Source: Crambe crambe (Eukaryota; Porifera; Demospongiae; Poecilosclerida; Crambeidae). Taken from it: a stretch of DNA of 64,000 nt. The notes beneath the pieces were generated by a model. The model was not told where the DNA came from, made no database searches, and was given only the letters and a program-made list of their open reading frames with translations. A program made the position numbers and the translations under genes. This document shows, piece by piece, positions 10,177 through 62,031 of this stretch (position 1 is its first letter; every line of letters starts with the position of its first letter). The stretch is from NCBI GenBank assembly GCA_963924555.1, contig OZ004594.1:3255563-3319562 (forward strand), written 5' to 3'.

Positions 10177-11698
10177 ATGACTAGCATCCTCAGGCTGGTT
10201 GCAGTGCTTTTTCTAGTTACCTTGGAGGGAGTGGTATCTCAGCAACATATAAGAGGTATGTTATATATTCCAAGGTTTAAATTGGACACATTCATAGACT
10301 TTATTTTCAAGTGTTTTAGCTCATTACTATTATGGTGGCTTTATAGTCTTTGGAAATAAAATACATGGTATGAAATTTAAACACACTACCTCTTCAAACT
10401 TAGCATGTAAAGAAGAAGGTGAGGTGAGGCTTGTGGAAGGAACCAAGTATGCAGGACGTGTGGAGATTTGTTTGCCTAATAGTGGTGGTGGTAGGAACAG
10501 AACACTGGTATGGGGAACAGTGTGTCACAAAGGTTGGGATAATAATGAAGCTACAGTGGTGTGTCGTCAGTTAGGATTCAACACCAGCACATCACCAGGT
10601 AAAATTAGATACAAAACTTTCAATGCTGGGTCACTCATGCTATTGAATTATTAAGGTCCCATCGCCTGCAGACTTGCCTGCTTTGGGGAAGGGACTGGTC
10701 CAGTACACTATAACAAGACAGATAGTGAATGTGACAGTACAGAAGCAGAGTTGATGGACTGCAAACGATCAACAAATGATGCCCCCTGTGATCATACGAG
10801 AGATGCTGGAGTGATATGTGGTAATCCATAATACTGCAGCTATAGCATGAAATTTTCATGCTGTACATTTAATTATACTGGTACAATCTTCTATATCAAT
10901 TTGTAGCATTACCATCTTCTGTTCAGCCTATGACAACATCTATGACAACATCATTGTCATGTGACTGTGGTGGAATAGCAGGAGGTCTGGGCACACTTGT
11001 AGCTCTTCTGATTTTGCTGCTAGTGGGAGTCATAATAGGATGGGTGTGGTCATCCCTGAGGAGGTCCAAGATGTGAGTTTTAAGTACAAGTATGTTATGT
11101 AGGTATTATACTGACTTCTTTCTTCAGAGAGTCACCTACAATGGCCAGTGATCCTGCCTATCCTCCCTCTGTGAAGAAAGAAAGTTCAACTGCTTCCCGA
11201 AAGACTAGTTCTCCTGGACCAGATCAAGCATATGATGATGTTACATACAACTTAAATGTGAGGATGCATCAGGAGTCTGGACCAGATCAAGCATACGATG
11301 ATGTTACATATAACTTAAATACGAGGATGCATCAGGAGTCTGGACCAGATCAAGCATACGATGATGTTACATATAACAGGATGCATCAGGAGACTCATGA
11401 AAAACAAGAGAACGAAGTTTCAGGAAATATCAAGGAAGAAGGGATCTATCATGAGCCCAAGGAAGGGGAATGTCGGTACGTTTCAAATGAGGCAGGGAAA
11501 GAAAGGATCTATCATGTGTTAGAGAAGCCTCAAACGAGGGAAGGGGATGATCAAGTTTCAAAAGAGAGGATCTATCACGTGTTAGAAGGGCCTCTAACAA
11601 GTACAGAGGAGGAAGAGGGCTATCAAGCTTTAAAAGAAGCAGCACCTACATATGCCATCCCAGACTCTAAAATAGTACGAAATATACATAATAGTTAA
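10177..11698 (+). CDS. SR1: SRCR single-pass receptor with repeated Tyr-motif tail
   Basis: Exons 10177-10255, 10404-10598, 10656-10820, 10907-11072, 11128-11698; phases 1-1-1-2; 391 aa. The ATG at 10177 starts a signal peptide ([18 protein letters not shown]). Exons 2-3 make the SRCR domain ([47 protein letters not shown]). Exon 4 is a short stalk and helix ([20 protein letters not shown]). The tail has three copies of a Tyr block (AYDDVTYNL; units 11216-11278, 11279-11341, 11342-11395), then GIYHEP, two [12 protein letters not shown] and TYAIP. It is first in the array, its signal peptide differs from most others, and its tail shares the [12 protein letters not shown] block with SR5. Intact. 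Confidence 0.88.
11216..11395 (+). repeat. In-frame 63-bp exonic tandem repeat in the SR1 tail
   Basis: Two full 63-bp units and one of 54 bp (a 9-bp deletion, still in frame). Each encodes [12 protein letters not shown], so each adds two tyrosines. Confidence 0.95.
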
Positions 11699-11744
11699 GT
11701 GTTTTTATACTTTCCCATGATGATTAATTCAGTTCAAGTTGATG

Positions 11745-12130
11745 TCACACAGCCATGAACTTCATGTATGCAGCGCAGAGAGGTGATGGAAATTCAGCCT
11801 ACACCAGTTCTGCTGGCCCATGTAGCCCCTAGTGGTGCTCCAAAGCAGGCCACTCTGAGGATTAATGATACCTCACAAGAGGGAGATGGACAATGACACT
11901 CATAACTCTCACTCCCCACTCGGACTCCTGTGCCAAAACTAATCCAAAAGATGCATCTTGCATGTATCAATAAATATCTCATGAAGATATCAGTAGAATA
12001 ACAAAAGTGAGAGAAATTCATATCACCTTATCTTGATATACCGTAATAATAATTGGTACTGGCCACACCCCTGGACAGAGAACAAACCTCATGCAAGAAT
12101 ATTGTCATGGGGATATCCCACAAGCCCAAC
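11745..12130 (+). pseudogene. Fossil tail exon of SR2 type
   Basis: Aligns by eye with the SR2 tail (CACAGCCATGAACTTCATG..., CCTAGTGGTGCTCCAAAGCAG, GATAATACCTCACAAGAGGG) but has frameshifts and stops. No SRCR or membrane exon is attached. The rest of 11.7-12.3 kb is AT-rich spacer. Confidence 0.8.
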
Positions 12131-12306
12131 AAAGTAAAGCAATATAATAAATCACTATAAACAAATTTAACTTGTTTTCATAATTATTATAGAAACTTGT
12201 TTCCGAGATGAGTATCCTCCATTCAATATTGTATTGCATAAGTGATTATTGTTACCTGACACTCCATCCATATACATGATGTTGAAAAATGCTTCAGTGC
12301 AGTGCC

Positions 12307-13580
12307 ATGGCTACTAAGACTTGTAATTCCCTGAACCAGGTGCTGGTCTACATTATGCTGTTCCAGCTCCAACTAAAAGGTACAATGAGCATTTTGATTC
12401 ACAAAAGGGATGAAAGTGTTTCTTTATGTAGCTGTAAAGACATGCCAGCGAGGTGAAGTAAGACTGGTGAATGGAACTGAATCAGGTTCTGCAGGACGTG
12501 TGGAGATATGCCTACCTCAGAGTGATGCTAACGAAACATTGGTATGGGGAACAGTGTGTCACAAAGGTTGGGATAATAATGAAGCTAGAGTGGTGTGTTA
12601 TCAGCTAGGATTCAACGCAAGCACACTACCAGGTACTCTTTTACACATTATAGTTAAGTGTATCGTATGAAGGGCAGCAGTTTATAATGATTCTGTTATA
12701 TTGAAGGTCCCGTTGCCTGCAGACGTGCCTGCTTTGGGGAAGGGACAGGTCCAATACACTATGCAAATAATGGTTCTGCCTGTAATGGCACTGAAACTAA
12801 ACTGATTGACTGTGCAAGATCAGTAAATAATGCCTTCTGCGATCACAGTAAAGATGCTGGAGTGATATGTGGTAATACAAAATAATTTTTATAGATGTTT
12901 AATATGATCATTACATTTCTATAGACTTCCCACCCCCTACACCCTTTGTTCAGTGGCCACTCACTACTACAGGAGGCATGCAGAGTGTGGCAGCAACACT
13001 AGCTGGAAGTCTTGTTTCTTTAACAACCATCATGATCATAGCACTGGTTATTGGATTGGCGTGGATATGTCATAGGAGAAAAAAAGAAAGATCCATGCAT
13101 TCTAATGTTCCACACAGCTATCAACTCCATACATGCAAAGAGATGATGAAAAATCCAGCCTACAGTTCTACTGGCTCACAAGATAAGGTCCCTAGTGGTG
13201 TTCCAAAGCAGACCACCCTTACATCCGTGGGGACTGATAATACCTCACAAGAGGGAGAAGATAGCAGAAAGACACACTCACAATCCCCATCACCACTCCT
13301 ATGCCAAACTAATCCAAAAGATGTGCCTTGTATCATTTCCCCTGACCAAATGTCTTCCACATGTCATGAAGACATCACTGGAATAAACAACCATCCTCAA
13401 AAGTTGGAGAAATTCACATCACATTATGATGATATTGTAATCATTGGCCACTCACAACCCCAACGTCCACCACTGCCCCCCAAGGGTGGGGGAAAATCAC
13501 TACAGATACAACACAAACCTCATACAAGAAAAGTGGAATATTGTAGTATAATCGTGGGGGGTGGAAGTCTTAACAAATGA
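12307..13580 (+). CDS. SR2: SRCR receptor with fused TM+tail exon and SH3-type proline motif
   Basis: Exons 12307-12379, 12432-12632, 12707-12871, 12925-13580; 364 aa. It has only four exons: helix and tail share one exon, so the last intron of the family is missing. Signal peptide [20 protein letters not shown]. The SRCR starts [20 protein letters not shown] and carries CYQLGF where the others have CRQLGF. The membrane segment (SLVSLTTIMIIALVIGLAWI) differs from the rest and ends in CHRRKK. The tail has NPAYSS, HYDDIVII and EYCSII plus RPPLPPKGG, a class II (PxxPxK) SH3 ligand pattern. It may be the founder of a lineage whose tail also occurs as fossils at 11.75-12.13 and 21.3-21.8 kb. Intact. 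Confidence 0.86.
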
Positions 13581-14104: not shown

Positions 14105-16947
14105 ATGAATCATAACTCACTGAAGCAGGTGCACATGCTACCAGAACTGCTAGTCTACATAACTATATTGCTCCAGCTCCAACTAAGAGGTAAAGTGAGA
14201 AATTTTTTTTGGGGGGGAAAGTGTTTCTAAAGTGTTTCTTCAATTGTAGCTGTAGAGGCATGTCAGCGAGGTGAAGTAAGACTGGTGAATGGAACTGATT
14301 ATGCTGGACGTGTGGAGATATGCTTACCTCATAGTGATAGTAACGGAACACTGGTATGGGGAACAGTGTGTCACAAAAATTGGGACAATAATGAAGCTAT
14401 AGTGGTGTGTCGTCAGTTAGGATTCAACACCAACACACTACCAGGTACTGTGTGCACATATAATTAACTGTATGGTATGAAGGGCAGAAATGTATAGTAA
14501 TTCTATGTTATATAAGGGAAAAAGCATTTCGTGAAATGAAAAAGGATGTAGGGATGACCACTGCTCAAAAAAGTAAGGAAACAAGAAGGATGGAATCTTT
14601 GTTCTGTATATCCAGCCAACAATCCCTATATATACGTCGGGTAGCTTCAGATTATAGTGTAGTAATGTACGTATATGTAGGGATTGTTGGCTGGATATAC
14701 AGAACAAAGATTCCATCCTTCTTGTTTCCTTACTTTTTTGAGCAGTGGTCATCCCTACATCCTTTTTCATTTCACGAAATGCTTTTTCCCTTACTTGTTC
14801 CTGGTCTTTTTTCCTCTCTTTTATGGTTTTAGCTATGTATAGAGTTCATTCTTCTATGTGTATGCAGGGACAGATGAAAGAAGAATAGTTCTCCAATAGC
14901 ATACCAGCCCAATCATTATCAACGAGTCAAGGTGGAGGTAGAAGATGCTGAAATAGAGTCTACCTTGTTGAATCTAAATCCCCGAGTCGATACAGTAGTC
15001 TATCATCATCATCATTATTCTAGCTACATATACCTATACCTAGGACCTAGCTAGAGGCAGCTGAGTAATATTATAATTTCGAATTATTGGATATCAAATA
15101 CATGCGCATGCGTATTATAGAAAAGATGGCTTCCTAATTGAATTAGTCGAGTGCTGTGCTCCTTAGTGTCTCCTTTTTCATCGACTCTTTCGAGGATCAA
15201 CGAGTAGAAAAGATCGTAGTTCGTAGAATTTGGAGTGGATTTGTCCAGAAATCATAGCTGTAGCTTGAGTGGTTCGAGAGATATGGTTGTCTAAGAAGAA
15301 TAAGAAGAATAATAATAATAGAGAAGAAGAAGAATATAGCGGTTTACCTGCTTGCCGTATTTCTGAAACGGTAAGCTCCCTGGTCCTGAAACTTGGTCTG
15401 CACATTGTAGTAGGCTCTAGTAGGCTGGATAATCATTCACAGTAGCTTTTGTTAGGTCTAAGTGGGGGAACTGGAATTTCACTTTTGTATTAGTCTATAG
15501 GCGGCGCGCGCGGCCGTCCAAGTCATCCCTACATAGAGAGTGCTACCGCACTCTCTGATTGAAGGTCCTGTTGCATGCAGACGTGCCTGTTTTGGGGAAG
15601 GGACTGATCCAATACACTATGCAAATAATGGTTCTGCCTGTAATGACACTGAAACTAAACTGATTGACTGTGCAAGATCAGTAAATGGTGGTCTCTGTGA
15701 TCACAGTAAAGATGCTGGAGTGATATGTGGTAATTCACAGTAGAATTTGATATACAGACTCATCTTAGTAGAAGTCTATATTATTTTTGTAGTAATACCA
15801 TCTTCTGTCCAGCCAACAGTAATGTGTGATTGCAGTGGACAAGCAGGAGGTCTGGGTACACTGATAGTTCTTCTGATTTTGTTGCTAGTGGGGGTCATTT
15901 TAGGGTGGGTGTGGTCATCGCAGAGGAGGAATTACAATGTTAAAACCAAAAAGTAAGACTTAGGTATCTATCAGAAAGAACGCTAGCTCTCTCAAAGTAG
16001 GGATGGCAGTTTAAAAAACTCTTTTCTCTCATCTGGCATACTACTCTACAGGTTCTCAAACCTTTACTAGCTACTTCTATACAGGATAGGGAAGAAATAT
16101 TTGCAATATATGATCACTGTATCATAAGTGCCAACTGTCCCCAAACTTTGGGAACAGCCCCAAAATTGCAGCTTGTCCTCAGGTCCCCAAAGGGGTACTA
16201 TTTTTCCCCCAAAGCTCTTGACAAGGGGCCTGACTGTATGATTTCATGCTCCACAGGCTGAAATTAGCAGCTCTTTATTGAGTGGTAGGTATCATAGCTA
16301 CATAGCTTGAGTTTATGAACATGGCTGAGGCTTTGATAATAAAATTTAGTTCTATGAGTCAACCTTTACTGTGGAATTACTCACAGAGTGCAAGCAAGCT
16401 AATGCTAGCTATTATACTAATTTTTGTTGGCATTATTGATGTTTTATTCTAAGCAGAGTGAAGTATGATTCAAGTCCAATTGAATTTTTTTCATGATTCA
16501 TGGTCATGGCATACTCTGTGTGGCTTGGTTTGATAGCTATGACATAATCCATCTAGATTTTGGGGCCATCCCTACTTATTTTTTCAGAAGAATTTTTTTG
16601 CAATCATAATAATAATGACTCCTTTCAGAGTGACAGTCCAGATGACCAATGATCTTGCCTATGGCACTTCTCCAGAAGACTCATCTTGCATTGATCCCCC
16701 TGACCCTAAATCTTCCACAGTATATGAAGACATCACTGGGATAGACAACCATCCTCAAAAGCTGGAGGAAGATTATAATGTGCTGCAACATCCTCAAGTG
16801 GGAGAGAGGAAGCATCGAGTCCAATATGAACAGCCTGATTATTCAAATGCTTTCCCCTCCGAGTTGTACCAAACGATCGAGTGTGGTCAGCAAGATACAT
16901 TGGCTACCGATTCCCACAGGCCCAGCAGTTTACCTACCACTAACTAA
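14105..16947 (+). CDS. SR3: SRCR receptor with short alpha-class tail, transposons in two introns
   Basis: Exons 14105-14189, 14250-14444, 15565-15729, 15793-15952, 16629-16947; 307 aa; phases 1-1-1-2. The SRCR begins [20 protein letters not shown]. The stalk is only ~15 residues before the helix ([20 protein letters not shown]) and the basic SSQRRNY. Tail motifs: [12 protein letters not shown] (fits ITSM TxYxx(V/I)), EDYNVL, DYSNAF, LYQTI; it then ends early, before the YDDI/YNVL/YQVL block of longer alpha tails. Intron 2 carries a ~1-kb insertion and intron 4 a ~580-bp element, yet all splice sites remain. The signal peptide lacks the Phe-Gln ending ([10 protein letters not shown]). Confidence 0.86.
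14516..15557. mobile_element. Composite insertion in intron 2 of SR3
   Basis: Comparison with the same intron in SR5 shows that ~1.04 kb has been inserted between TTCTATGTTATAT and TTGAAGG. Its right end is a hairpin (AGAGAGTGCTACCGCACTCTCT, 15535-15556) beside CATCCCTACAT, the same terminal signature as the elements at 15994 and 62228. Its left part is a long foldback. No transposase was found. Confidence 0.7.
14517..14793. repeat. Near-perfect long foldback (~117-bp arms)
   Basis: The left arm from GGGAAAAAGCATTTCGTG is mirrored by the right arm ending CACGAAATGCTTTTTCCC-type sequence. A loop of ~40 bp (GTCGGGTAGCTTCAG...) lies between. Only a single mismatch was noted. Matching open frames on both strands are a result of the symmetry. 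Confidence 0.88.
15994..16577. mobile_element. MITE with AAGTAGGGATGGC ends in intron 4 of SR3
   Basis: Inverted ends AAGTAGGGATGGC and GGCCATCCCTACTT. The interior is AT-rich and non-coding. The same element sits at the same place in SR4, so insertion came before the SR3/SR4 duplication. Confidence 0.75.
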
Positions 16948-17097: not shown

Positions 17098-18330
17098 CTA
17101 TGAATTCTAACTCCCTGAACTGCTAGTCTACATTATGCTATTCCAATTCCAAAGCTAGAGTGATGTGTCATCAGCTTCAACACCAGGGTTTCATTTAGGA
17201 TTATACCCAAGGGGGGGCAAAATGAAGGTTGAGCAAAATAAGAAGGGGCAAGCATATCTGTGTGCTTGTGCGTGGAAATTTTTTTGGCCTAACCACGCCC
17301 ACTTTTGGCATTCACTTGATGATATTAACAATGACTTATGTATTATCAATGGACATTACCTACACATCATATTACCTATCAATATGTGTGCAGAGGAAGC
17401 TATACCAGCTCTAAGGACCTTTAGAGCTGGTACCAATTCTTTCTTTGATCTATTCTTTGTAATGGCTCTTAGCCTCGGGAGACTCATGCTTATCTAACTG
17501 AGAATAGTACTATAAGGAATAGTAGGCTATGTCATTTAGTTAATATTACTGAAATCCCAAGGGGGGGGGGGGGGGGGCGAACCATTGCCAAGGGGGGGGG
17601 GGGGGCAAATGGCCCCCTTCACCCCCCCCCCCCCCCCCCCCCCCCCCAAATGAACCCCTGAACACCAATATATAGCTCATGAAGGGCAGCAGTTTATAAT
17701 GATTCCCATTGAAGGTGCCATTCCTTGCAGATGTTCTGCTTTGTGAAAGGGACTGATCCAATAATAGTTATGCCTGTATACCAGGTACTGCATACACATA
17801 ACTGTTATTGTATGAAGGGAAGTTTATAATATTTCGCCTGGAGACTTGCATGCTTTGAGGAAGGGACTGGTCCAATACACTATGCAAATGATGGAGCTGC
17901 CTGTAATGGCACAAAAATGAAACTGATGTGTGAGATCATTAAATTACTTATATGCTCCTTGTGATCACAGTAGAGATGCTGGAGTGATATGTGGTACTAT
18001 CTAATGTTATAGCTGATAACAAAGTTATCACCAGTGGTGAATACCTTCACTTTTAGTGCAAAAACTTGGAATCCTGCCTATCCAAGTGTCAAGCCATGCC
18101 AAACAGTAGAATAGCTGCTATAGTGCAAATATCTCACACATCTTGTGCCAGATAGTTGAACGGGTCCACGTCAGTCAGAAGATCCTTCACATCATACAAT
18201 AATTAGTACTGGCCACTCACAACCTCAACCTCCACTCCTGCTCCCCAAAGATGGACTACATAATTATATGACACAAACCTCATTCAAGGGAAGTGGAAAG
18301 AGTATAGTCATGGATGGAACCCAGAGGCCC
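17098..18330 (+). pseudogene. Decayed SRCR receptor gene between SR3 and SR4
   Basis: In order: a signal-peptide exon fused to the end of SRCR exon 2 (ATGAATTCTAACTCCC... GTGTGTCATCAGC), a MITE, two damaged exon-3 copies (near 17710 and 17840-18000, DAGVICG region readable), and an exon-5 relic (CCTGCCTATCCAAGTGTCAAG, 18070-18260). Many deletions and stops. Confidence 0.82.
17184..17660. mobile_element. 477-bp MITE with 5-bp target duplication
   Basis: Inverted ends CAGGGTTTCATTT and AAATGAACCCCTG. Flanked by AACAC on both sides (17179-17183, 17661-17665), where other family members read one uninterrupted TTCAACACCAGCAC. It contains long G and C homopolymers (17562-17647), which may be unreliable in assembly. 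Confidence 0.8.
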
Positions 18331-18516: not shown

Positions 18517-20395
<1,879 letters not shown>

Positions 20396-20486
20396 TATAA
20401 TACACTTTATTGTCATACATAAATATTTGTTATCATAATAATTGTAAGATATTGTACTAACTACCTGTCTAGAAAGAGATATTTCA

Positions 20487-20488
<2 letters not shown>

Positions 20489-20550
<62 letters not shown>
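20489..20550. repeat. (GT)n microsatellite
   Basis: About 30 GT units downstream of SR4. The Cys/Val open frame across it is not a gene. Confidence 0.95.
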
Positions 20551-20551
<1 letters not shown>

Positions 20552-20559
20552 ATGTATGT

Positions 20560-20915
20560 GCGTGTGTGGAGTCACTAGCAGTGAGTGGTTTGCACTCTGG
20601 GCAAACCACTTGCTGTAAATATCCACCTAACATCATGCCACCAGTCCACCCAGCTGAAAATGGGTATTTCCAGGGTGCAAATCAAACTGGATATCTCTCC
20701 AATATTGGTGGTCCAGGTGGGACTTCGGGTGCCCACACCACTTGCCGAGAAGAGGTAGTCAGTCCTCCTGCGAGTTCCTAACCTGGGCTCTAGGAGGTTG
20801 CCAGCACTGGCTCTTAGTGCCTGCTTAGTGCACAGGCATCCTGGCTTGACCAGGTGCGTGTGACCGCTCAGCAGCAGCTGCATTTTGCATTTTTGCATTT
20901 TTTGCATGTGTGTAC
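20560..20915. other. GC-richer non-coding island, possibly a retroposed repeat
   Basis: Base composition differs from the AT-rich surroundings, and it ends in a T-rich repeat TTTTGCATTTTTTGCATG. No RNA gene structure or protein family recognised. Confidence 0.3.
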
Positions 20916-20944
20916 ATGTGTAGAAAAATAGCTACATGTAGCTA

Positions 20945-22460
20945 GCTACTATGAATTCGAACTCTCTGAACTGCTAGTCTACATTATGCTGTTCCAATTC
21001 CAATTAAACAGTGTATAAAGCTAGAGTGGTGTGTCATCAGCTAGGATTCAACACCAGCATTACCATACATATATATAGCTAGCTGTATTGTATGAAGGGA
21101 AGCAGTTTATTATGATTCCCATTGAAGGTCCCATTGCTTGCAGACATCCTGCTTTGTGAAAGGGACTGATCCAATAATAGTTCTGCCTGTATAATGCATG
21201 GCAATGAAACTAACTGTGCAAGATCAAGATCAGTGGATTCTGGCAATCACAATACAATGTTGGAGTGATATGTGTTAAACAAAAACTTATGGTAACTACA
21301 TTTCTGTAGACTTCCCACAGGCACACAGCCATCAACTCCATACATGCAGAGAGATGACGAAAAATCCAGCCTACAGTTTTACTGGCCCACAAGATGAGGT
21401 CCCTAGTGGTGCTCCTAAGCTGACCACCCTTATATCCGTGGGGACTGATAATACCTCACAAGAGGGAGAAGATAACAGAAAGACACACTCACAATCCTCA
21501 CTCACTCCTATGCCAAACGATATGTCGTGTATCAATTCCCCTGACCAAATATCTTCCACATGTCATGAAGACATCACTGGAATAAACAACCGTTGCATCA
21601 CATTATGATGATGTTGTAATCATTGGCCATTCACAACCCCAACATCCACCACTGCCCCCCAAGGACGGGGGAAAATCACTACAGATACAACACAAACCTC
21701 ATGCAAGACAAGTGGAATATTGTAGTATAATCATGGAGGGTGGAAGTCTTAACGAATGATGCACCACAGACTGAGCAAAACTATTGAAAATCAAGGCTCA
21801 ATTCCTAATTTGGCTTTGGCTTATTTGTTTAATCAACAACAAAATTATTTTTAGAAAAAACAAATACAATTTTCCAAAGATTGGGACTGTACTGCATAGC
21901 TACACATAACTGTTATTGTATGAAGGGAATCACCAGTGGTGAATACCTTCACACAGATAGATCAGTGTACAGAAACAGTGACCAGTAAGCAGGAAAAGTA
22001 GGTAGCTAGAACTACGATTTAGTGTTGGAATAGTTTTACCAAACTTTTAGCACCAGTGCAAAACTCGGAATCCTGCCTATCCAAGCGTCAAGCCATGCCA
22101 AACAGTAGAATAGCTGCTATAGTGCAAATATCTCACACATCTTCCACACCATCTTATGATGGAATTGACCATCATATGGAGGTAGATTGCAACATGTCGC
22201 AACATAAACCTTAAAATGGGAAGGAGAAAGCATCAAGTCCAATATGAATCACCTGTCTATATGTTTTCTCCTCTGAGTCATGCCAGATAGTTGAACGTGG
22301 TCCACAAGATACATCGTCAGTCAGAAGATTCTTCACAATAATTAGTACTGACCACTCATAACCTCAACCTCCACTCCTGCTCCCCAAAGATGGACTACAT
22401 AATTATATGACACAAACCTCATTCAAGGAAAGTGGAAAGAGTATAGTCATGGATGGAACC
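20945..22460 (+). pseudogene. Decayed SRCR gene(s) with SR2-type and epsilon-type tail relics
   Basis: Signal-exon relic (20950-20998), exon-2 end (GTGTGTCATCAGCTAGG, 21030), exon-3 fragment (21127-21265, truncated), an SR2-type tail (21315-21760; readable NPAYSFTGPQDEVPSGAP, then a frame break near 21600), then an epsilon-type tail relic (22060-22400). At least two ancestors are merged here. Confidence 0.8.
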
Positions 22461-22656
22461 CACAGGCCCACTAAAGTAAACAATGATTGCAAATTGAAAC
22501 TTGGTTCCTAGGAATGTTTTGTGTATATGCTTAAAGATAATCAAAATTGTTTCCAATTGTTCTAATATATTTCTCATTGCATTCATCATAATGTATCGTA
22601 AGGTATAAACAGATACGTATTGTGTATCTGTCAAGAAAAAGATATTGTAGTTGCCT

Positions 22657-23944
<1,288 letters not shown>

Positions 23945-46430: not shown

Positions 46431-46480
<50 letters not shown>
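46431..46480. repeat. (CA)n microsatellite
   Basis: About 24 CA units. Confidence 0.95.
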
Positions 46481-46482
<2 letters not shown>

Positions 46483-47773: not shown

Positions 47774-48051
47774 TGTTGGACAAGAGCCGGCCTTATCCAA
47801 CATAACTATAGGTATTGGCATGCAAGAACCTGCACAGACCACAAACTCACTGATTTTACCTTTTATGGACTTTTGCTGATTGGAGCAGCTCTGAAGCTAG
47901 CTCAGCAACAGCGGACAGACTGATTGATTTTGAGAACTGAGACTAGCTATCATCATATACATGTCTCATTTTCTCACTGTTGTGATTCATACAAATTATT
48001 CTATCAAAAGCTAGCAGCTGCTTAGCCCTACGTTAGAATAGAATCCCAACA
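47774..48051 (+). repeat. 5' LTR
   Basis: 278 bp, starts TGTTGGACAAGAGCC and ends GAATCCCAACA; same sequence as 52969-53246. Confidence 0.95.
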
Positions 48052-48152
48052 TTTGGTGGCAGCGGTTACGAGGATTGAACTTGTGCCTACGGGAGTGACA
48101 TTCGGAAGAAAGAAGTTGGACTTGTCTGCCAGAGGAAGGCGAAGATTCGGTA

Positions 48153-50645: not shown

Positions 50646-53000
50646 ATTCTGACCGTGATGGATTTTTCAACGCGGTACCCAGAAGCGATCCCTCTACGGA
50701 AAACTGACGCCACTTCAGTTGCCAAGGCCCTGTGTGAATTCTTCACAAAGATGGGAATCCCACGAGAGATACTCTCGGATCGAGGGAGTAACTTTTTATC
50801 GAAAGTGATGAAAGAGATGTCAAGGATCTTCGGCATCAAGCAGATTGCAACTTCACCCTACCATCCCCAATGTGACGGGATGCTTGAAAGGTTCCACGGA
50901 ACGCTCAAGTCCATGGTCACGAAAATTGGAAAAGGAGCACAAGATTGGGACGAATGGCTACCTTTTGCATGCTTTGCTGCTCGAGATGCAGTGCACTCAG
51001 CTACTGGTTTTACTCCATTCCAGCTTCTATTTGGACGTGAAGTAAGAGGACCCTTGAAGTTGCTAAAGGAGCAATGGACTGGAGAAATTCAAGGAGGAAG
51101 AACAGTTGTGGACTTTGTGTCAAGCCTCCAAAAGAAACTGACGATCTCCCACCATCTGGCAAAAGAATCCGAGAAGGAAGCCAAGAAACAGTCCAAGCTC
51201 TACTATGACAGGACAGCGAAGCAGAGAACCATGGAAGTCGGACAGAAGGTGCTGTTGCTTCTCCCAGACGAACTTGACAAGTTCACAGCAAAATGGACAG
51301 GTCCATACGTCATTGAGAAGAAACTGTCGGCGGTGAACTACCAAGTTGCCACACCAGACAGAGGAAAGAAAAAGAGAGTTGTACATATCAACATGCTCAA
51401 ACCTTGGATAGAAGAAACGTCTGTCATGGCAGTAACATGTGCTGATGAAGACACAGACAGTATGGAGTTACCAATCCACACATGGGAGGTTGAGACTGGA
51501 GAACTACCACACATCAATCACTCCCTGACAGTTGAACAGCAGAAGGAATTACAGGAACTACTCAGAGATATTGGAGACAATCTCAGCAATGAACCTGGTA
51601 TCACAGAGACCGGACTCCATCACATCAGGACAGGGGACAGCCAACCAGTCTACCAGCAACCCCACCGAATACCACATGCGTGGAAGGATCAAGTGAGAAA
51701 AGAAATTCAGGCGATGCTAGATGCAGGGATAGTAGTGCCTTCTGATAGTCCCTGGACGTCTCCCATTGTACCTGTAAAAAAGAAAGATGGTAGCATACGT
51801 TTATGCATTGACTATAGAAAGTTGAACGAAGTTACAGAGGAGGACAGGTATCAGATGCCACGGGTGGATGATCTAATTGAACGCATCGGAAGTGCCCTCT
51901 TCATCACTACCATAGACCTCACCAAAGGCTATTATCAAGTGCCACTAGCAAAGCCTGACCAGAAGAAGACAGCATTCATTTCTCCACAAGGGAAATTTGA
52001 ATTTACAAGGATGCCCTTTGGCCTGAAAGGGGCTCCTACCACCTTTCAGAGGATCATGGACTCAATGTTATCAAAGCATTTTAAGTATGCATCCGCATAC
52101 CTTGATGACATTGTCATCTTTAGCCATTCTTGGACTCAGCACCTGGACCACATACGCAAAGTGTTCAAGACTCTGGAAGAAGCAGGACTGAAGGCTAAAC
52201 CAAGCAAGTGTCACTTTGCCATGCACGAGTGCAGCTATCTGGGACATACAGTCGGAAGAGGTGCCATCAGACCTGAACAAGTGAAGATAGATGCGGTGAA
52301 AAATTTCCAAAAACCAAGGACAAAAAAGAACATTCAAGCATTTCTTGGCCTCATAGGGTACTATAGGAAGTTTATCAAGAATTTTTCTACTTTGGCAGCC
52401 AGACTGACAGATCTGACACGCAAGGATTGTCCCAACAAAGTAACCTGGACTCAAGAGTTGGAGGAAGACTTCATTGCACTACGAGATGAGTTGTTGAAGA
52501 AACCGGTGTTGAAGTGCCCGGACTATCAGCAGATGTTTATTCTTCAGACCGATGCCTCAGATCGGGGAATTGGGGCAGTATTATCTCAGACTGACCTGAC
52601 AGGGAAGGAACACCCTATCGCATATTACTCGAGAAAACTGCTTCCAAGAGAGCAGAGGTATGCTACAATTGAAAAAGAGTGCCTGGGAATTGTATGTGCT
52701 CTCAAGCATTTTGAAGTGTATTTACTAGGCCAAGAATTTACCATTTGTACTGACCACAAGGCACTCAAGTTTCTTCAGAGAATGAAGAACAACAACAGCA
52801 GGTTGACCAGATGGGCTCTGGCCATCCAACCGTTCCAGTATGTCATCATTCATAAGCCTGGCTTGGACAATACTAACGCTGATGGTTTGAGTCGCCAAGC
52901 TTGGGATGAAGAAGACAATGAGTTGGAAGAACAATGGACAACTTCTCGCCAGAAGAAGGGGAGGGGAGTGTTGGACAAGAGCCGGCCTTATCCAACATAA
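50646..53000 (+). CDS. Retrotransposon integrase C-part, reverse transcriptase and RNase H
   Basis: Same frame as the previous ORF after the TGA. It holds the rest of the integrase core (VMDFSTRYPEA; SDRGSNF; the E in CDGMLERFHGTL), a GPY-type C-terminal module (WTGPYVIEKKL; HINMLKPW), then reverse transcriptase (SPIVPVKKKDGSIRLCIDYR; the active site YLDDIV) and RNase H (LQTDASDRGIG; IEKECLGIV; CTDHKAL). The frame ends inside the 3' LTR. No env-like frame. Without readthrough of the stop, RT would not be made as part of the polyprotein, so this copy may be non-autonomous. Confidence 0.93.
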   Translation: MLTVMDFSTRYPEAIPLRKTDATSVAKALCEFFTKMGIPREILSDRGSNFLSKVMKEMSRIFGIKQIATSPYHPQCDGMLERFHGTLKSMVTKIGKGAQDWDEWLPFACFAARDAVHSATGFTPFQLLFGREVRGPLKLLKEQWTGEIQGGRTVVDFVSSLQKKLTISHHLAKESEKEAKKQSKLYYDRTAKQRTMEVGQKVLLLLPDELDKFTAKWTGPYVIEKKLSAVNYQVATPDRGKKKRVVHINMLKPWIEETSVMAVTCADEDTDSMELPIHTWEVETGELPHINHSLTVEQQKELQELLRDIGDNLSNEPGITETGLHHIRTGDSQPVYQQPHRIPHAWKDQVRKEIQAMLDAGIVVPSDSPWTSPIVPVKKKDGSIRLCIDYRKLNEVTEEDRYQMPRVDDLIERIGSALFITTIDLTKGYYQVPLAKPDQKKTAFISPQGKFEFTRMPFGLKGAPTTFQRIMDSMLSKHFKYASAYLDDIVIFSHSWTQHLDHIRKVFKTLEEAGLKAKPSKCHFAMHECSYLGHTVGRGAIRPEQVKIDAVKNFQKPRTKKNIQAFLGLIGYYRKFIKNFSTLAARLTDLTRKDCPNKVTWTQELEEDFIALRDELLKKPVLKCPDYQQMFILQTDASDRGIGAVLSQTDLTGKEHPIAYYSRKLLPREQRYATIEKECLGIVCALKHFEVYLLGQEFTICTDHKALKFLQRMKNNNSRLTRWALAIQPFQYVIIHKPGLDNTNADGLSRQAWDEEDNELEEQWTTSRQKKGRGVLDKSRPYPT

Positions 53001-53246
53001 CTATAGGTATTGGCATGCAAGAACCTGCACAGACCACAAACTCACTGATTTTACCTTTTATGGACTTTTGCTGATTGGAGCAGCTCTGAAGCTAGCTCAG
53101 CAACAGCGGACAGACTGATTGATTTTGAGAACTGAGACTAGCTATCATCATATACATGTCTCATTTTCTCACTGTTGTGATTCATACAAATTATTCTATC
53201 AAAAGCTAGCAGCTGCTTAGCCCTACGTTAGAATAGAATCCCAACA
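52969..53246 (+). repeat. 3' LTR
   Basis: 278 bp, read as identical to the 5' LTR. Confidence 0.95.
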
Positions 53247-53778
53247 CCCTATATCTTCCACATTATATGAAGACATCACTGGGATAGACAGTCATCCTCA
53301 AAAGCTGGAGGAAGATTATAATGTACTGCAACAACATCAAGTGGGAGAAAAGAAGCATCAAGTCCAATATGAACAGCCTGACTATTCAAATGTTTTCCCC
53401 TCTGAGTTGTGCCAAACAGTTGAGTGTGGTCAGCAAAATACATTGGCGACCAATTCTCTATCCTTCATGTCACAAGCTTATGATGACATCATTGGTGTTG
53501 GTAGCCACCCACAACCCCCAAAGGTGGAAGATTATAATGTATTGCAACACAAACCTCAAACATTAAGAAGAGTGGAAGAGGAAGAGTATCAAGTTCTGGG
53601 GGAATGGGAGTCTCAATAAAATACATAATTGTCCAACAGGCCAAGTAGTTGACCTACCACTAACTTAACTAATAAAACTCATTCCCAACAAAACTGTTGT
53701 TATAAATAAGTATTATCAAAAAAATTAGTTATCATAAACTATATAATCGCATATAATAATTCTTGCTACTACCTATAC

Positions 53779-53815: not shown

Positions 53816-53851
53816 CATGTAGAAAAATAATTACTTTGTTAGCTAGCTACT

Positions 53852-55309
53852 ATGAATTCTAACTCCCTGAAGCAGGGACACATGCTACCTGAACTGCTAG
53901 TCTACATTATGCTCTTCCAACTCCAACTAAAAGGTATGAACAATTTTTATTTACAAAAGGGATGAAAGTGTCTCTTCCATATGTAGTTACTGTAGCTGTA
54001 GAGACATGTGAGGAGACATGTGAGGAGCAAGGTGATGTAAGACTGGTGAATGGAACTGAATCAGGTTCTGCAGGACGTGTGGAGATATGCTTACCTCATA
54101 GTGATAGTAATGGAACACTGGTATGGGGAACAGTGTGTCACAAAGGTTGGGACAATAATGAAGCTAGAGTGGTGTGTCGTCAGTTAGGATTCAACACTAA
54201 CACACTACCAGGTACCTCTAGTTAACTGTATTGTATGAAGGGCAGCAGTTTATAGTGATTCTATGCTATATTGAAGGTCCCATTGCCTGCAGGCTTGCCT
54301 GCTTTGAGGAAGGGACTGGTCCAATACACTACATGAATAATACTGATTGTAGTGGCACTGAAACTAGATTGGTAAACTGTGCAAGATCAGCAAAAGAAGG
54401 CCTCTGTGATCACAGTAGAGATGCTGGAGTGATATGTGGTAATCTAACACTATACTGTAGTTAGCTCAATGCATACATGTATCATGAATGCATGAGTCAT
54501 CAGTGATACTACCACATGCAGAGTTATCCACAGTGGTGAACACCATCACACAGTGTACTGCAACAGTGACCAGTGAACAGCAGCAAATGAATTGCACACT
54601 TGCAGTGACCTCAGTCCAACATCTCTTTAGTACCAGTCCAAGGGTCACGGCAATCAAAGTTGAAGGACTAGCTGGTGGTCTGGGATCCTTAACTGCTGTC
54701 ATGACCTTGGTGACTGTGGGTGTGATTCTAGGATGGGTATGGTCATGTCACAACAAGATAAGAAATTTCTCCACCCAGAACAAATCGTAAGTATAAATTA
54801 TACTTAAAAGTAACACCTTATATGTACCATGCAATATATCCAGCACAAAAACTCAGATGACACAAAACCCTGCCTATCCAAATGTAGAGCTGTGCCGAAT
54901 TATCAAATCTAATCCAAAAGATCTCCCTGACCCTATATCTTCCACATTATATGAAGACATCGCTGGGATAGAAGACAGCCATCCTCAAAAGCTGAAGGAA
55001 GATTATAATGTACTGCAACAACCTCAATTGGGAGAAAAGAAGCATCAAGTCCAATATGAACAGCCTGACTATTCAAATGTTTTCCCCTCTGAGTTGTACC
55101 AAACAGTTGAGTGTGGTCAGCAAAGTACATTGGCTACTGATTCTGTAGATGGAAGATCCTTCACATCATCTTATGATGACATCATTGGTGTTAGCCACCC
55201 ACAACCCTCAAAGGTGGAAGATTATAATGTATTGCAACACGAACCTCAAAAATTAAGAAGAGTGGAAGAGGAAGAGTATCAAGTTCTGGGGGAATGGGAG
55301 TCTCAATAA
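53852..55309 (+). CDS. SR18: SRCR receptor with full eight-tyrosine alpha tail
   Basis: Exons 53852-53933, 53996-54211, 54277-54438, 54522-54786, 54844-55309; 396 aa. This is the clearest full-length model. Signal [24 protein letters not shown] with [53 protein letters not shown] and DAGVICG; stalk with NCT sequon; helix [28 protein letters not shown]. Tail motifs in order: NPAYPNV, STLYEDI, KEDYNVL, DYSNVF (Y-x-N), [27 protein letters not shown]. The stop TAA overlaps AATAAA. The tail is the same as that of SR21. Intact. Confidence 0.92.
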
Positions 55310-55541: not shown

Positions 55542-57001
55542 ATGAATTCTAACTCCCTGAAGCAGGGACACATGCTACCTGAACTGCTAGTCTACATTAT
55601 GCTCTTCCAACTCCAACTAAAAGGTATGATGAGCAATTTTTGATTGATAAAAGGGATGAAAGTGTCTCTTCCATATGTAGCTACTGTAGCTGTAGAGACA
55701 TGTGAGGAGACATGTGAGGAGCAAGGTGATGTAAGACTGGTGAATGGAACTGAATCAGGTTCTGCAGGACGTGTGGAGATATGCTTACCTCATAGTGATA
55801 GTAATGGAACACTGGTATGGGGAACAGTGTGTCACAAAGGTTGGGACAATAATGAAGCTAGAGTGGTGTGTCGTCAGTTAGGATTCAACACTAACACACT
55901 ACCAGGTACCTCTAGTTAACTGTATTGTATGAAGGGCAGCAGTTTATAGTGATTCTATGCTATATTGAAGGTCCCATTGCCTGCAGGCTTGCCTGCTTTG
56001 AGGAAGGGACTGGTCCAATACACTACATGAATAATACTGATTGTAGTGGCACTGAAACTAGATTGGTAAACTGTGCAAGATCAGCAAAAGAAGGCCTCTG
56101 TGATCACAGTAGAGATGCTGGAGTGATATGTGGTAATCTAACACTACTGTAGTTAGCTCAATGCATACATGTATCATGAATGCATGAGTTATCAGTGATA
56201 CTACCACATGCAGAATTATCCACAGTGGTGAACACCATCACACAGTGTACTGCAACAATGACCAGTGAACAGCAGCAAATGAATTGCACACCTGCAGTGA
56301 CCTCAGTCCAACATCTCTTTAGTACCAGTCCAAGGGTCACGGCAATCAAAGTTGCAGGACTAGCTGGTGGTCTGGGATCCTTAACTGCTGTCTTGACCTT
56401 GGTGACTGTGGGTGTGATTCTAGGATGGGTATGGTCATGTCACAACAAGATAAGAAATTTCTCCACCCAGAACAAATCGTAAGTATAAATTATACTTAAA
56501 AGTAACACCTTATATGTACCATGCAATATATCCAGCACAAAAACTCAGATGACGCAAAACCCTGCCTATCCAAATGTAGAGCTGTGCCGAATTATCAAAT
56601 CTAATCCAAAAGATCTCCCTGACCCTATATCTTCCACATTATATGAAGACATCGCTGGGATAGAAGACAGCCATCCTCAAAAGCTGAAGGAAGATTATAA
56701 TGTACTGCAACAACATCAAGTGGGAGAAAAGAAGCATCAAGTCCAATATGAACAGCCTGACTATTCAAATGTTTTCCCCTCTGAGTTGTACCAAACAGTT
56801 GAGTGTGGTCAGCAAAGTACATTGGCTACTGATTCTGTAGATGGAAGATCCTTCACATCACCTTATGATGACATCATTGGTGTTAGCCACCCACAACCCT
56901 CAAAGGTGGAAGATTATAATGTATTGCAACACGAACCTCAAGAATTAAGAAGAGTGGAAGAGGAAGAGTATCAAGTTCTGGGGGAATGGGAGTCTCAATA
57001 A
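55542..57001 (+). CDS. SR19: SRCR receptor, alpha tail
   Basis: Exons 55542-55623, 55690-55905, 55971-56132, 56214-56478, 56536-57001; 396 aa. The SRCR is the same as that of SR18. Differences from SR18 are few: stalk [12 protein letters not shown], helix AVLTLVTV for [17 protein letters not shown] for [14 protein letters not shown] for [13 protein letters not shown] for EPQKLRRV. All eight tail tyrosines kept. Most change is in the stalk and tail, not the ectodomain. Confidence 0.92.
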
Positions 57002-57233: not shown

Positions 57234-58652
57234 ATGAATTCTAACTCCCTGAAGCAGGGACACATGCTACCAGAACTGCTAGTCTACATTATGCTCTTCC
57301 AACTCCAACTAAAAGGTATGATGAGCAATTTTTGATTGATAAAAGGGATGAAAGTGTCTCTTCCATATGTAGCTACTGTAGCTGTAGAGACATGTGAGGA
57401 GACATGTGAGGAGCAAGGTGATGTAAGACTGGTGAATGGAACTGAATCAGGTTCTGCAGGACGTGTGGAGATATGCTTACCTCATAGTGATAGTAATGGA
57501 ACACTGGTATGGGGAACAGTGTGTCACAAAGGTTGGGACAATAATGAAGCTAGAGTGGTGTGTCGTCAGTTAGGATTCAACACTAACACACTACCAGGTA
57601 CCTCTAGTTAACTGTATTGTATGAAGGGCAGCAGTTTATAGTGATTCTATGCTATATTGAAGGTCCCATTGCCTGCAGGCTTGCCTGCTTTGAGGAAGGG
57701 ACTGGTCCAATACACTACATGAATAATACTGATTGTAGTGGCACTGAAACTAGATTGGTAAACTGTGCAAGATCAGCAAGAGAAGGCTTCTGTGATCACA
57801 GTAGAGATGCTGGAGTGATATGTGGTAATCTAACACTATACTGTAGTTACATGTATCATGGATGCACAAGTTATCAGTGATACTACCACATGCAGAGTTA
57901 TCCACAGTGGTGAACACCATCACACAGTGTACTGCAACAGTGACCAGTGAACAGCAGCAAATGAATTGCACACCTGCAGTGACCTCAGTCCAACAATCCT
58001 TTAGTACTAGTCCAGGAGTCACAGAAATCAAAGTTGCAGGACTAGCTGGTGGTCTGGGATCCTTAATTGCTGTCTTGACCATGGTGACTGTGGGTATGGT
58101 TCTAGGATGGGTATGGTCATGTCACAATAGGATAAGAAATTTCTCCACCCAGAACAAATCGTAAGTATAAATTATAACTAAAAAATAACACCTTATATAT
58201 CATACAATATATCCAGCACAAAAACTCAGATGACACAAAACTCTGCCTATCCGAATGTAGAGTTTAATCAATCTTGTGATCCTCCTGACCCTATATCTTC
58301 CACATTATATGAAGACATAGACAGCCATCCTCAAAAGCTGGATAACATACTGCAACAACCTCAAGTGGGAGAAAAGAAGCATCAACTCCAATATGAACAG
58401 CCTGACTATTCAAATGTTTTCCCCTCTGAGTTGTACCAAACAGTTGAGTGTGGTCAGCAAAATACATTGGCTACCGATTCTCTATCCTTCAAGTCACAAG
58501 CTTATGATGACATTATTGGTGTTAGTAGCCACCCACAACCTCCAATGGTGGAAGATTATAATGTATTGCAACACAAACCTCAAACATTAAGAAGAGTGGA
58601 AGAGGAAGAGTATCAAGTTCTGGGGGAATGGGAGTCTCATCATAATATATGA
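57234..58652 (+). CDS. SR20: SRCR receptor with the SR15 stalk and tail
   Basis: Exons 57234-57315, 57382-57597, 57663-57824, 57896-58160, 58217-58652; 386 aa. Exons 1-3 follow SR19 (signal [14 protein letters not shown] with [12 protein letters not shown]), but exons 4-5 and 3' flank are those of SR15: [15 protein letters not shown], helix [13 protein letters not shown], alpha-2 tail with DNILQQ in place of EDYNVL. The segment just before exon 4 (TACATGTATCATGGATGCAC) matches SR16 instead, so the intron is a mosaic. Intact. Confidence 0.91.
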
Positions 58653-58886: not shown

Positions 58887-60344
58887 ATGAATTCTAACTC
58901 CCTGAAGCAAGGACACATGCTACCTGAACTGCTAGTCTACATTATGCTCTTCCAACTCCAACTAAAAGGTATGAACAATTTTTATTTACAAAAGGGATGA
59001 AAGTGTCTCTTCCATATGTAGCTACTGTAGCTGTACAGACATGTGAGGAGACATGTGAGGAGCAAGGTGATGTAAGACTGGTGAATGGAACTGAATCAGG
59101 TTCTGCAGGACGTGTGGAGATATGCTTACCTCATAGTGATAGTAATGGAACACTGGTATGGGGAACAGTGTGTCACAAAGGTTGGGACAATAATGAAGCT
59201 AGAGTGGTGTGTCGTCAGTTAGGATTCAACACTAACACACTACCAGGTACCTCTAGTTAACTGTATTGTATGAAGGGCAGCAGTTTATAGTGATTCTATG
59301 CTATATTGAAGGTCCCATTGCCTGCAGGCTTGCCTGCTTTGAGGAAGGGACTGGTCCAATACACTACATGAATAATACTGATTGTAGTGGCACTGAAACT
59401 AGATTGGTAAACTGTGCAAGATCAGCAAAAGAAGGCCTCTGTGATCACAGTAGAGATGCTGGAGTGATATGTGGTAATCTAACACTATACTGTAGTTAGC
59501 TCAATGCATACATGTATCATGAATGCATGAGTCATCAGTGATACTACCACATGCAGAGTTATCCACAGTGGTGAACACCATCACACAGTGTACTGCAACA
59601 GTGACCAGTGAACAGCAGCAAATGAATTGCACACTTGCAGTGACCTCAGTCCAACATCTCTTTAGTACCAGTCCAAGGGTCACGGCAATCAAAGTTGAAG
59701 GACTAGCTGGTGGTCTGGGATCCTTAACTGCTGTCATGACCTTGGTGACTGTGGGTGTGATTCTAGGATGGGTATGGTCATGTCACAACAAGATAAGAAA
59801 TTTCTCCACCCAGAACAAATCGTAAGTATAAATTATACTTAAAAGTAACACCTTATATGTACCATGCAATATATCCAGCACAAAAACTCAGATGACGCAA
59901 AACCCTGCCTATCCAAATGTAGAGCTGTGCCGAATTATCAAATCTAATCCAAAAGATCTCCCTGACCCTATATCTTCCACATTATATGAAGACATCGCTG
60001 GGATAGAAGACAGCCATCCTCAAAAGCTGAAGGAAGATTATAATGTACTGCAACAACCTCAATTGGGAGAAAAGAAGCATCAAGTCCAATATGAACAGCC
60101 TGACTATTCAAATGTTTTCCCCTCTGAGTTGTACCAAACAGTTGAGTGTGGTCAGCAAAGTACATTGGCTACTGATTCTGTAGATGGAAGATCCTTCACA
60201 TCATCTTATGATGACATCATTGGTGTTAGCCACCCACAACCCTCAAAGGTGGAAGATTATAATGTATTGCAACACGAACCTCAAAAATTAAGAAGAGTGG
60301 AAGAGGAAGAGTATCAAGTTCTGGGGGAATGGGAGTCTCAATAA
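58887..60344 (+). CDS. SR21: SRCR receptor, near-copy of SR18
   Basis: Exons 58887-58968, 59031-59246, 59312-59473, 59557-59821, 59879-60344; 396 aa. The stalk, helix and tail read the same as in SR18. The mature ectodomain differs mainly at the start (AVQTCEET for AVETCEET). The upstream flank follows SR15/SR16 rather than SR18 (AAAAAAGATACTTCATCTCTCG). Intact. Confidence 0.92.
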
Positions 60345-60576
60345 AATACATAATTGTCCAACAGGCCAAGTAGTTGACCTACCACTAACTTAACTAATAA
60401 AATTCATTCCCAACAAAAAATGTTGTCATAAATAAAAAAATTAGTCATCATAAACTATATAATCGCATATAATAATTCTTGTAGCTATAGCTACTACCTA
60501 TACCTGTCTAGAGAGAGATTCTTTCATCTCTCAGTCTGCACATGTAGAAAAATAATTACTTTATTAGCTAGCTACT

Positions 60577-62031
60577 ATGAATTCTAACTCCCTGAAGCAG
60601 GGACACATGCTACCAGAACTGCTAGTCTACATTATGCTCTTCCAACTCCAACTAAAAGGTATGATGAGCAATTTTTGATTTACAAAAGGGATGAAAGTGT
60701 CTCTTCCATATGTAGCTACTGTAGCTGTAGAGACATGTGAGGAGACATGTGAGGAGCAAGGTGATGTAAGACTGGTGAATGGAACTGAATCAGGTTCTGC
60801 AGGACGTGTGGAGATATGCTTACCTCATAGTGATAGTAATGGAACACTGGTATGGGGAACAGTGTGTCACAAAGGTTGGGACAATAATGAAGCTAGAGTG
60901 GTGTGTCGTCAGTTAGGATTCAACACTAACACACTACCAGGTACCTCTAGTTAACTGTATTGTATGAAGGGCAGCAGTTTATAGTGATTCTATGCTATAT
61001 TGAAGGTCCCATTGCCTGCAGGCTTGCCTGCTTTGAGGAAGGGACTGGTCCAATACACTACATGAATAATACTGATTGTAGTGGCACTGAAACTAGATTG
61101 GTAAACTGTGCAAGATCAGCAAGAGAAGGCCTCTGTAATCACAGTAGAGATGCTGGAGTGATATGTGGTAATCTAACACTATATTGTAGTTAGCTCAATG
61201 CATACATGTATCATGAATGCATGAGTCATCAGTGATACTACCACATGCAGAGTTATCCACAGTGGTGAACACCATCACACAGTGTACTGCAACAGTGACC
61301 AGTGAACAGCAGCAAATGAATTGCACACCTGCAGTGACCTCAGTCCAACATTTCTTTAGTACCAGTCCAGGGGTCACGGCAATCAAAGTTGCAGGTGGTC
61401 TGGGATCCTTAACAGCTGTCCTGACTTCAGTGCTAGTGGGTGTGGCTCTAGGATGGTTGTGTTCATGTTATAAGAGAAGAGGGAAATCAAGCACTCAGGA
61501 GAGGTGAGAGCAACAGCCAATGATAACATTGATGACATAATATTCCATGCACACAGAGCTCATACATCCAGTACTATTACAAGTCAAGAAATGGTACTGG
61601 AGAATCTCACCTACTCTGAACCAATGCAGTATAGTTCCATTGACCCTCATGGTACACATCCCTCTGTCGGTCCAACACAAAACAAACTCTTCTCTACTTA
61701 TGATGTCATAAGGAATGAAAACATCTCTCCAAATATGGAGAGAATCTACCATGTGATTGAGAACGATTCTGCTCAAATAAAAAAGAAAAATAAACAGAAA
61801 GAGTCTACCACATTCTGTCAGAAACAGAACATGGATGGAAGGTCACAGGTCAAAAAAAATGATCCCAGTTATCGAAAGGATGAGGAGAGGGTCTATCATA
61901 TTTTATCGGAAGTGGAGGCATCAAGAAGCAAGGTCCCTAGCCAAAAGAAAGATGCAGCACCTCAAGTGGTCGAAAAGGAGGAGGAGAGAGTTTATCATGT
62001 CTTGGAGACACCTGACCATACATGTAGCTAA
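60577..62031 (+). CDS. SR22: SRCR receptor with delta tail (last gene of the array)
   Basis: Exons 60577-60658, 60725-60940, 61006-61167, 61251-61503, 61557-62031; 395 aa; last intron 53 bp. Ectodomain and first part of the stalk are SR19-like (one sequon-changing variant, LCNHSRD for LCDHSRD); the helix then switches to the SR16 form ([20 protein letters not shown]) and the tail is the SR16 delta tail with few changes (STYDVI, RIYHVI, VYHIL, VYHVL). 12 bp coding for GLA are lost before the helix. Homology to the SR16 3' flank runs to 62226 and then stops at a transposon end. Confidence 0.91.

Follow-up and report, generated by a model that had tools for sequence, protein, structure and literature searches.

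CD5 and CD6 each carry three SRCR domains of the group B type, the ectodomains of Siglec and CEACAM proteins have the Ig-fold and those of the Hydractinia Alr proteins are Ig-like. The tails of CD5 and CD6 hold 4 and 9 tyrosines, respectively, and provide multi-tyrosine docking for SH2 proteins (PMC6305463). Siglec-11 and Siglec-16 are described as having very similar ectodomains, kept alike by gene conversion, and differing tails (PMC5701461), and very similar ectodomains with differing tails are likewise described for CEACAM1 and CEACAM3 (PMC5112662). In the sponge Amphimedon queenslandica 296 SRCR genes are reported, 158 of them in tandem and with shared exon structure (PMC10855680); the SRCR-richest scaffold mentioned there has nine genes, a sea urchin example has 16, and the words 'tyrosine' and 'ITIM' do not occur in the main text of that paper. 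Here we describe an array of single-SRCR receptor genes in the sponge Crambe crambe, in which the ectodomain and the cytoplasmic tail have different histories. The array begins in a stretch of 64,000 bases, hereafter the window (assembly GCA_963924555.1, contig OZ004594.1, C17:3255563-3319562), and the genome that was searched comprises 143.1 Mb in 119 contigs.

The genes of this array resemble CD5 and CD6 in having an SRCR ectodomain, one transmembrane (TM) helix and a multi-tyrosine cytoplasmic tail. Unlike CD5 and CD6, which are single genes, they stand in tandem, each complete gene encodes one two-exon SRCR domain rather than the three of the CD5/CD6 family, the domain has four extra cysteines and the tail sequences are other ones. 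Large expansion and tandem arrays with a common exon structure are shared with the SRCR superfamily of Amphimedon and the sea urchin, from which the locus is set apart by its number of units (25 inside the window and about 12 more past its end), by one SRCR domain per complete unit and by tyrosine tails. In contrast to Siglec-11/16 and CEACAM1/3, for which opposing functions are reported, the array has far more copies and lacks a charged TM residue with which an adaptor could pair. It shares with Botryllus FcoR and Hydractinia Alr the clustering of invertebrate receptors whose tails are of the ITIM, hemITAM or YxxΦ type (immunoreceptor tyrosine-based inhibitory motif, ITIM; the corresponding activating motif, ITAM; its single-tyrosine form, hemITAM); for those proteins an allorecognition role and polymorphism have been shown or proposed, and the FcoR ectodomains are Ig/sushi, unlike the SRCR found here (PMC12065747). 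Among the papers listed in a literature search none describes sponge SRCR receptors with ITIM or ITAM tails, which is no proof that such a description is absent. The initial annotation of the window had stated that no single-SRCR family with such tails in a cluster of this kind was known; none was found among those papers, but CD5/CD6, FcoR and Alr show that parts of the design are.

The window holds 25 units arranged head to tail (Table 1), of which 17 gave complete gene models and 8 are broken; g06b may contain more than one remnant. The models were obtained by tblastn of exon peptides followed by splice-site enumeration and inspection, and they rest on splice-site logic. Matches to SRCR exons 1 and 2 occur throughout the stretch and lie on the plus strand in all cases. 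In each complete gene the first exon encodes the signal peptide, the next two the single SRCR domain, the fourth the TM helix and the last the tail; the exception is g02, which lacks the last intron and has TM and tail in one exon. All introns in the 17 models are GT-AG, and their phases are 1,1,1,2 in 16 of them. The predicted proteins have 307-396 residues, 114-196 of which form the tail; in every one a signal peptide and a single SRCR domain precede the TM helix and the cytoplasmic tail. The array of SRCR receptors is thus confirmed. The initial annotation had proposed a head-to-tail array with one exon plan and one type of ectodomain, a single SRCR, and had counted 17 genes that close in frame over all exons; these statements hold, the receptors being of type I, and the limits it gave, 10177 and 62031, coincide to the base with the start codon of g01 and the stop codon of g24. 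Its total of 22 genes is three short.

Beyond the window we counted 12 further units in the adjoining stretches L017-L020. Four are in L017 and have SRCR exons close to those of g19-g24, with exon 1 broken in the first of them. The other eight, in L018-L020, have TM and tail, and in some of them the SRCR exons are degraded or unrecognisable and the stalks are Thr-rich and repeated; at L018:2-355, 1284-1751 and 3536-4159 such stalks contain repeated HIPVVTTIIQREQCTPS units next to degraded SRCR remnants. An orphan tail remnant at L017:918-1166 was left out of the count. With these additional units the whole array spans about 85 kb, from C17:3,265,739 to about 3,350,420. The 80 kb upstream of it contain no match to 11 exon queries at E 0.001.

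The main new result, overlooked in the initial annotation, is that the history of the ectodomain differs from that of the tail. The ectodomains of six genes (g17 and g20-g24) are 97.6-100% identical, with no synonymous divergence (dS = 0). The tail of g24, in contrast, is only 15-17% identical to those of g17 and g20-g23, and it is 97% identical to the tail of g18. Comparison of the DNA in steps of 60 columns locates the transition: g24 and g23 are 92-100% identical over 60540-61379, a likeness that begins ahead of the ATG, 88% identical in the next step and 31-66% identical thereafter, whereas g24 and g18 agree at 91-100% throughout the tail. A second case is provided by g06 and g05, which are 98-100% identical over 22660-22959, 84-96% in SRCR exon 2 and 90-100% in the TM exon, but drop to 30-53% in the tail. 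In g24 the switch point falls within the TM exon, in g06 just past it. Near-identical ectodomains joined to differing tails in neighbouring genes, the layout of paired receptors, are therefore found in g24/g23 and in part in g06/g05. In a self-comparison of the locus 109 direct matches were 700 bases or longer, and the 45 longest are 68-98% identical. The outer part is conserved or homogenised, and the tails are the most variable part and are exchanged between ectodomains. A conserved ectodomain with exchanged tails points to one ligand class with several outputs rather than to a hypervariable self/non-self receptor. The reading that we prefer, at a probability of roughly 0.5, is that these single-SRCR type I receptors recognise a single ligand class by means of a near-constant ectodomain and pass on different signals through exchangeable tails.

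Each of the four tail types that were searched for in the genome leads back to the array. This is true for all 24 matches of the class A tail and all 3 of the g01 tail, for 4 of the 5 matches of the class B tail (the fifth is a weak match on C11) and for 9 of the 10 of the 12-repeat tail (the tenth is a weak match on C16). Two weak matches apart, tails of these types are thus restricted to the array. For the TM and tail portion of g21 (residues 200-394 of the spliced 394-residue protein) a search of 5.8 billion proteins yielded 412 candidates, none of them a relative at E 1.

The ectodomain is of a well-known kind. As the initial annotation held, it is an SRCR domain: the Pfam profile (PF00530) matches window positions 28739-29179 at 67.1 bits, with a cut-off of 26.1, in the g09 frame that reads through one intron, which was the one receptor frame in the window scanned against Pfam. 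In the PDB 26 distinct sequences match the ectodomain of g21 after splicing, with CD163 the best and with CD6 (5a2e, E 9.5e-21), CD5L, DMBT1 and MARCO also among them. Group A SRCR domains have six canonical cysteines and are split over two exons. In the array all 17 complete genes have a phase-1 intron inside the domain and encode 10 or 11 cysteines per ectodomain, among which the alignment, inspected by eye, contains six canonical positions that we take to be those of group A. The ectodomains would accordingly be placed in the SRCR superfamily as group A type. Four extra cysteines are conserved, one ahead of GDVRL and the others in VEIC, IAC and LAC (in g12, SPCF replaces LACF); by eye, the one before GDVRL and the one in VE[ILV]C are also present in Amphimedon P0058. 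The domain is common in the genome, with at least 175 matches (best 150 of 2833 candidates scored). When one array SRCR served as the query (150 of 2280 candidates scored), the matches outside the array were 36-50% identical, apart from one partial match at 59%.

To what extent the two halves diverge under selection is indicated by pN/pS, the ratio of nonsynonymous to synonymous differences. For the ectodomain, pooled over 11 divergent genes, it is 0.55 (0.56 in exon 1 and 0.53 in exon 2), and in sliding windows the first 12 codons (1.56) are the only ones to rise above 1. Two short loops in SRCR exon 2, chosen post hoc from the alignment, give 1.30, and the remainder of that exon gives 0.34. 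In three sets of related genes the tails have values of 0.58-0.75, and there is therefore no clear positive selection on either half. The picture of a compact, fast-evolving recognition locus drawn in the initial annotation is thus correct for recent duplication, pseudogenes and a dynamic locus, and is not supported for the recognition part. A hypervariable ectodomain was considered as a candidate and is not supported within the array by pN/pS or by pairwise identity.

These values bear on the possibility that the array is an allorecognition or self/non-self locus, in which receptors would differ between individuals and compatibility would be signalled by ITIM- or hemITAM-like tails. A tandem locus rich in turnover, with tyrosine-motif tails, would suit this role, and the Botryllus FcoRs are reported to have ITIM and hemITAM that can be swapped between alleles and by splicing (PMC12065747). 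However, in allorecognition receptors variation is expected on the outside rather than on the inside, and here the ectodomains are conserved within the array, to the point that six genes are nearly identical. We consider this role distinctly improbable; the conserved outer domain and the varied tails fit the layout of paired receptors better than that of a hypervariable allorecognition receptor.

The tails are rich in tyrosine, as had been noted at the outset. In 11 non-redundant tails 86 of 1762 residues (4.9%) are tyrosine, compared with 23 of 2153 (1.1%) in the preceding parts (signal peptide, ectodomain and most of the TM helix). When the sequences of these 11 tails were shuffled, YxxΦ was found to be enriched (47 observed vs 13.25), as were NPxY (5 vs 0.34), ITIM-type motifs with T allowed (13 vs 3.86), acidic YxxΦ (13 vs 0.53) and ITAM with the spacing widened to 6-12 (4 vs 0.17), each with p = 0.0005; the switch motif, ITSM, reached p = 0.04 (3 vs 0.66). 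YxN (p = 0.07) and PxxP (p = 0.14) were not enriched over shuffles of the same tails. Per 100 residues there are 3.00 YxxΦ in the 17 tails, 0.41 in the preceding parts and 0-1.62 in four control proteins from the same genome, and a single tail of a complete gene has up to 8. The strict ITIM, [SIVL]xYxx[LIV], is present in 13 of the 17 tails (it is missing from g01, g03, g05 and g06), NPxY in 8, the widened ITAM in 4 and YE[DE]I, a typical Src SH2 target, in 10. Acidic YxxL, which is hemITAM-like if Gly is treated as optional, occurs in 8, and Gly itself only in g01 (EEEEGYQAL). Among nine downstream tails examined, L017_T1b and T1c have 8 motifs each, and tandem 16-residue cassettes, up to 12 in number, are present in the tails at L018:8542-9447, L019:2282-2845 and L019:8024-8713; in the first of these 12 YxxΦ follow each other at an exact spacing of 16 residues. 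A canonical ITAM array was rejected as a candidate, the strict motif (YxxL/I-x6-8-YxxL/I) being found in 1 of 17 tails (g09). The description of the tails as immunoreceptor-like must accordingly be qualified: the strict ITIM is common, the acidic YxxL resembles hemITAM and the strict ITAM is rare.

If the array were the product of neutral tandem duplication, churned by unequal crossing-over, the mixtures of tails would have no separate functions. The 8 defective units among 25 are in keeping with this, and near-identical blocks indicate recent unequal exchange. On the other hand, 17 of 25 units have remained intact across 4-5 exons, the ectodomain pN/pS is that given above and the motifs are enriched across different tail classes, so that we regard neutrality as very unlikely. 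Somewhat more plausible, yet still rather unlikely in our view, is that these are scavenging or feeding receptors whose SRCR domain binds bacteria or debris, with YxxΦ and NPxY serving as endocytic signals in the absence of immunoreceptor signalling and duplication raising the dose. The occurrence of NPxY in nearly half of the tails (8/17) favors this possibility, and Amphimedon SRCR genes are reported to be expressed in tissues linked to digestion (PMC10855680). One YxxΦ would be enough for endocytosis, however, and the tails contain up to 8 or, downstream, 12 in regular steps, together with YE[DE]I in the majority.

Several observations weigh against our preferred reading, that of one ligand class coupled to exchangeable tails. 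The TM helices, read by eye from the models because a regular-expression check recovered no more than 2 of the 17, contain no charged residue and hence no charge that would recruit an ITAM adaptor. Since the strict ITAM is so rare, a clean division into activating and inhibitory tails cannot be read from the motifs, many tails carry mixed motifs, and YxxΦ also serves plain endocytosis. The shuffle tests count kin tails as independent, an objection that is answered in part at the level of classes, where YxxΦ is still in excess with a single representative per tail class (29 vs 8.76, p = 0.0002) and with the three most distinct tails (16 vs 4.20, p = 0.0002). In class A tails the tyrosine columns are not significantly more conserved than the others (0.72 vs 0.57, p = 0.08). 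The block at 53246-58130 is 98.3% identical over 4.9 kb to that at 66580-71478, and this may represent a recent duplication or, in part, haplotype misassembly. Because the tail motifs are mixed, a multi-tyrosine docking hub of the CD6 type, neither purely activating nor purely inhibitory (PMC6305463), may be the better functional model.

A mechanism for receptors with a shared ectodomain and differing tails can be proposed on the model of Siglec-11/16 and CEACAM1/3. Clustering by ligand would lead a Src-family kinase to phosphorylate tail tyrosines, for example in T-x-YEDI, on which an SHP2-like phosphatase, PLC-gamma or other tandem-SH2 proteins could then dock, and the NPxY of many class A tails would allow internalisation. 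Tandem duplication with unequal crossing-over or gene conversion would keep the 5' half of the genes alike (upstream region, signal peptide and SRCR), and the same exchange would swap the halves that encode TM and tail, yielding a paired-receptor set with shared recognition and differing output. Surface expression, phosphorylation, the ligand, opposing outputs and a role in the recognition of microbes or self are inferred. If the proposal is true, a design in which a single ectodomain is combined with interchangeable tyrosine tails, familiar from the receptors of vertebrate leukocytes and more recently described at allorecognition loci of ascidians and cnidarians, would extend to a sponge and to an unrelated domain, and the locus is a compact and testable one in which to ask whether ITIM-like signalling in a sponge serves microbes, self or both.

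Candidate partners are encoded in the same genome, in which at least 135 SH2 matches were obtained when 150 of 166 candidates were scored. Two SH2 matches are near neighbours on C18, where SH2 adjoins a protein tyrosine phosphatase domain (stretch L027), an arrangement like that of an SHP2-like gene; three SH2 matches on C21 (L028) read, by eye, as PLC-gamma-like. A tandem array of paired SH2 domains occupies C5:1417754-1522217 (L025 and L026); in L025 a Kelch frame comes after two SH2 frames, and a search of the genome with one SH2-SH2 protein gave 66 matches. No description of a tandem paired SH2-Kelch architecture was found in the literature search. The proteins of this array are possible phosphotyrosine readers. 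One may go further and imagine a full paired-receptor system in a sponge, built on an SRCR scaffold and independent of Ig, in which recombination in the TM exon swaps outputs, the 16-residue YxxL cassette in up to 12 copies sets the gain and the co-expanded SH2-SH2-Kelch array provides the readout; we consider this larger scheme doubtful.

Table 1. Receptor units and the retrotransposon of the window (positions counted from its first base).
Feature	Position	Strand	State	Remarks
g01	10177..11698	+	complete, 5 exons	exons 10177-10255, 10404-10598, 10656-10820, 10907-11072, 11128-11698; tail with AYDDVTYN repeats x3, YHVL x2, EEEEGYQAL x1
g02	12307..13580	+	complete, 4 exons	TM and tail fused; few Tyr; PPLPPK stretch
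g03	14105..16947	+	complete, 5 exons	class A tail, short
g04	17100..18250 (approximate)	+	degraded	SRCR exon 2 frame broken at ~17836-17995
g05	18517..20395	+	complete, 5 exons	class A tail, short
g06b	20473..22600 (approximate)	+	degraded	remains of at least 1 unit; partial SRCR exon 1 at 21017; tail-like frame 21279-21608
g06	22657..23944	+	complete, 5 exons	g05-like 5' part; different tail class (YHVL type)
g07	24150..25470	+	defective	frame lost in SRCR exon 2 near 24640
g08	26203..27662	+	defective	one stop right behind TM helix, second in tail
g09	28602..29881	+	complete, 5 exons	
g10	30867..32203	+	complete, 5 exons	short stalk
g11	32400..33548 (start approximate)	+	defective	signal exon not found; SRCR exon 1 truncated; tail frame open
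g12	33754..35210	+	complete, 5 exons	divergent ectodomain
g13	35914..37604	+	complete, 5 exons	
g14	38273..39606	+	complete, 5 exons	
g15	39800..40700 (approximate)	+	degraded	
g16	40967..42312	+	defective	SRCR exons intact, tail frame-shifted
g17	42553..43983	+	complete, 5 exons	class A tail
g18	44231..45645	+	complete, 5 exons	class B tail (ERIYHVI / EERVYHVL)
g19	46810..53619	+	defective	frameshift in SRCR exon 1 near 47012; retrotransposon within tail exon
LTR retrotransposon	47774..53246	+		not part of the receptor system; splits g19 tail exon
g20	53852..55309	+	complete, 5 exons	class A tail
g21	55542..57001	+	complete, 5 exons	class A tail; reference protein for searches
g22	57234..58652	+	complete, 5 exons	class A tail
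g23	58887..60344	+	complete, 5 exons	class A tail
g24	60577..62031	+	complete, 5 exons	g23-like 5' region and ectodomain, g18-like tail; switch in TM exon near 61380-61490

The long terminal repeats (LTRs) of the retrotransposon are 278 bp long and identical to each other, which indicates a recent insertion. A 4-bp target duplication was recognised by eye, and the 98% identical copy in L017 shows the site in its empty state. The integrase domains lie upstream of the reverse transcriptase, an order known from Gmr1-like elements.

Some other features of the window and the genome may be recorded. At positions 1-747, on the minus strand, a partial gene of glycosyl hydrolase family 7 (cellobiohydrolase-like, E 1.1e-20) leaves the window; genes of this family are unusual in animals. 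A perfect 89-bp tandem duplication, in two copies, is present at 63666-63844, past the last receptor gene of the window. For the neighbouring DNAJC11 gene, Amphimedon, at 40%, is the only named animal among the full-length matches listed (120 of 280). In the mitochondrial COX1 gene TGA is read as Trp, and several tRNA genes lie alongside.

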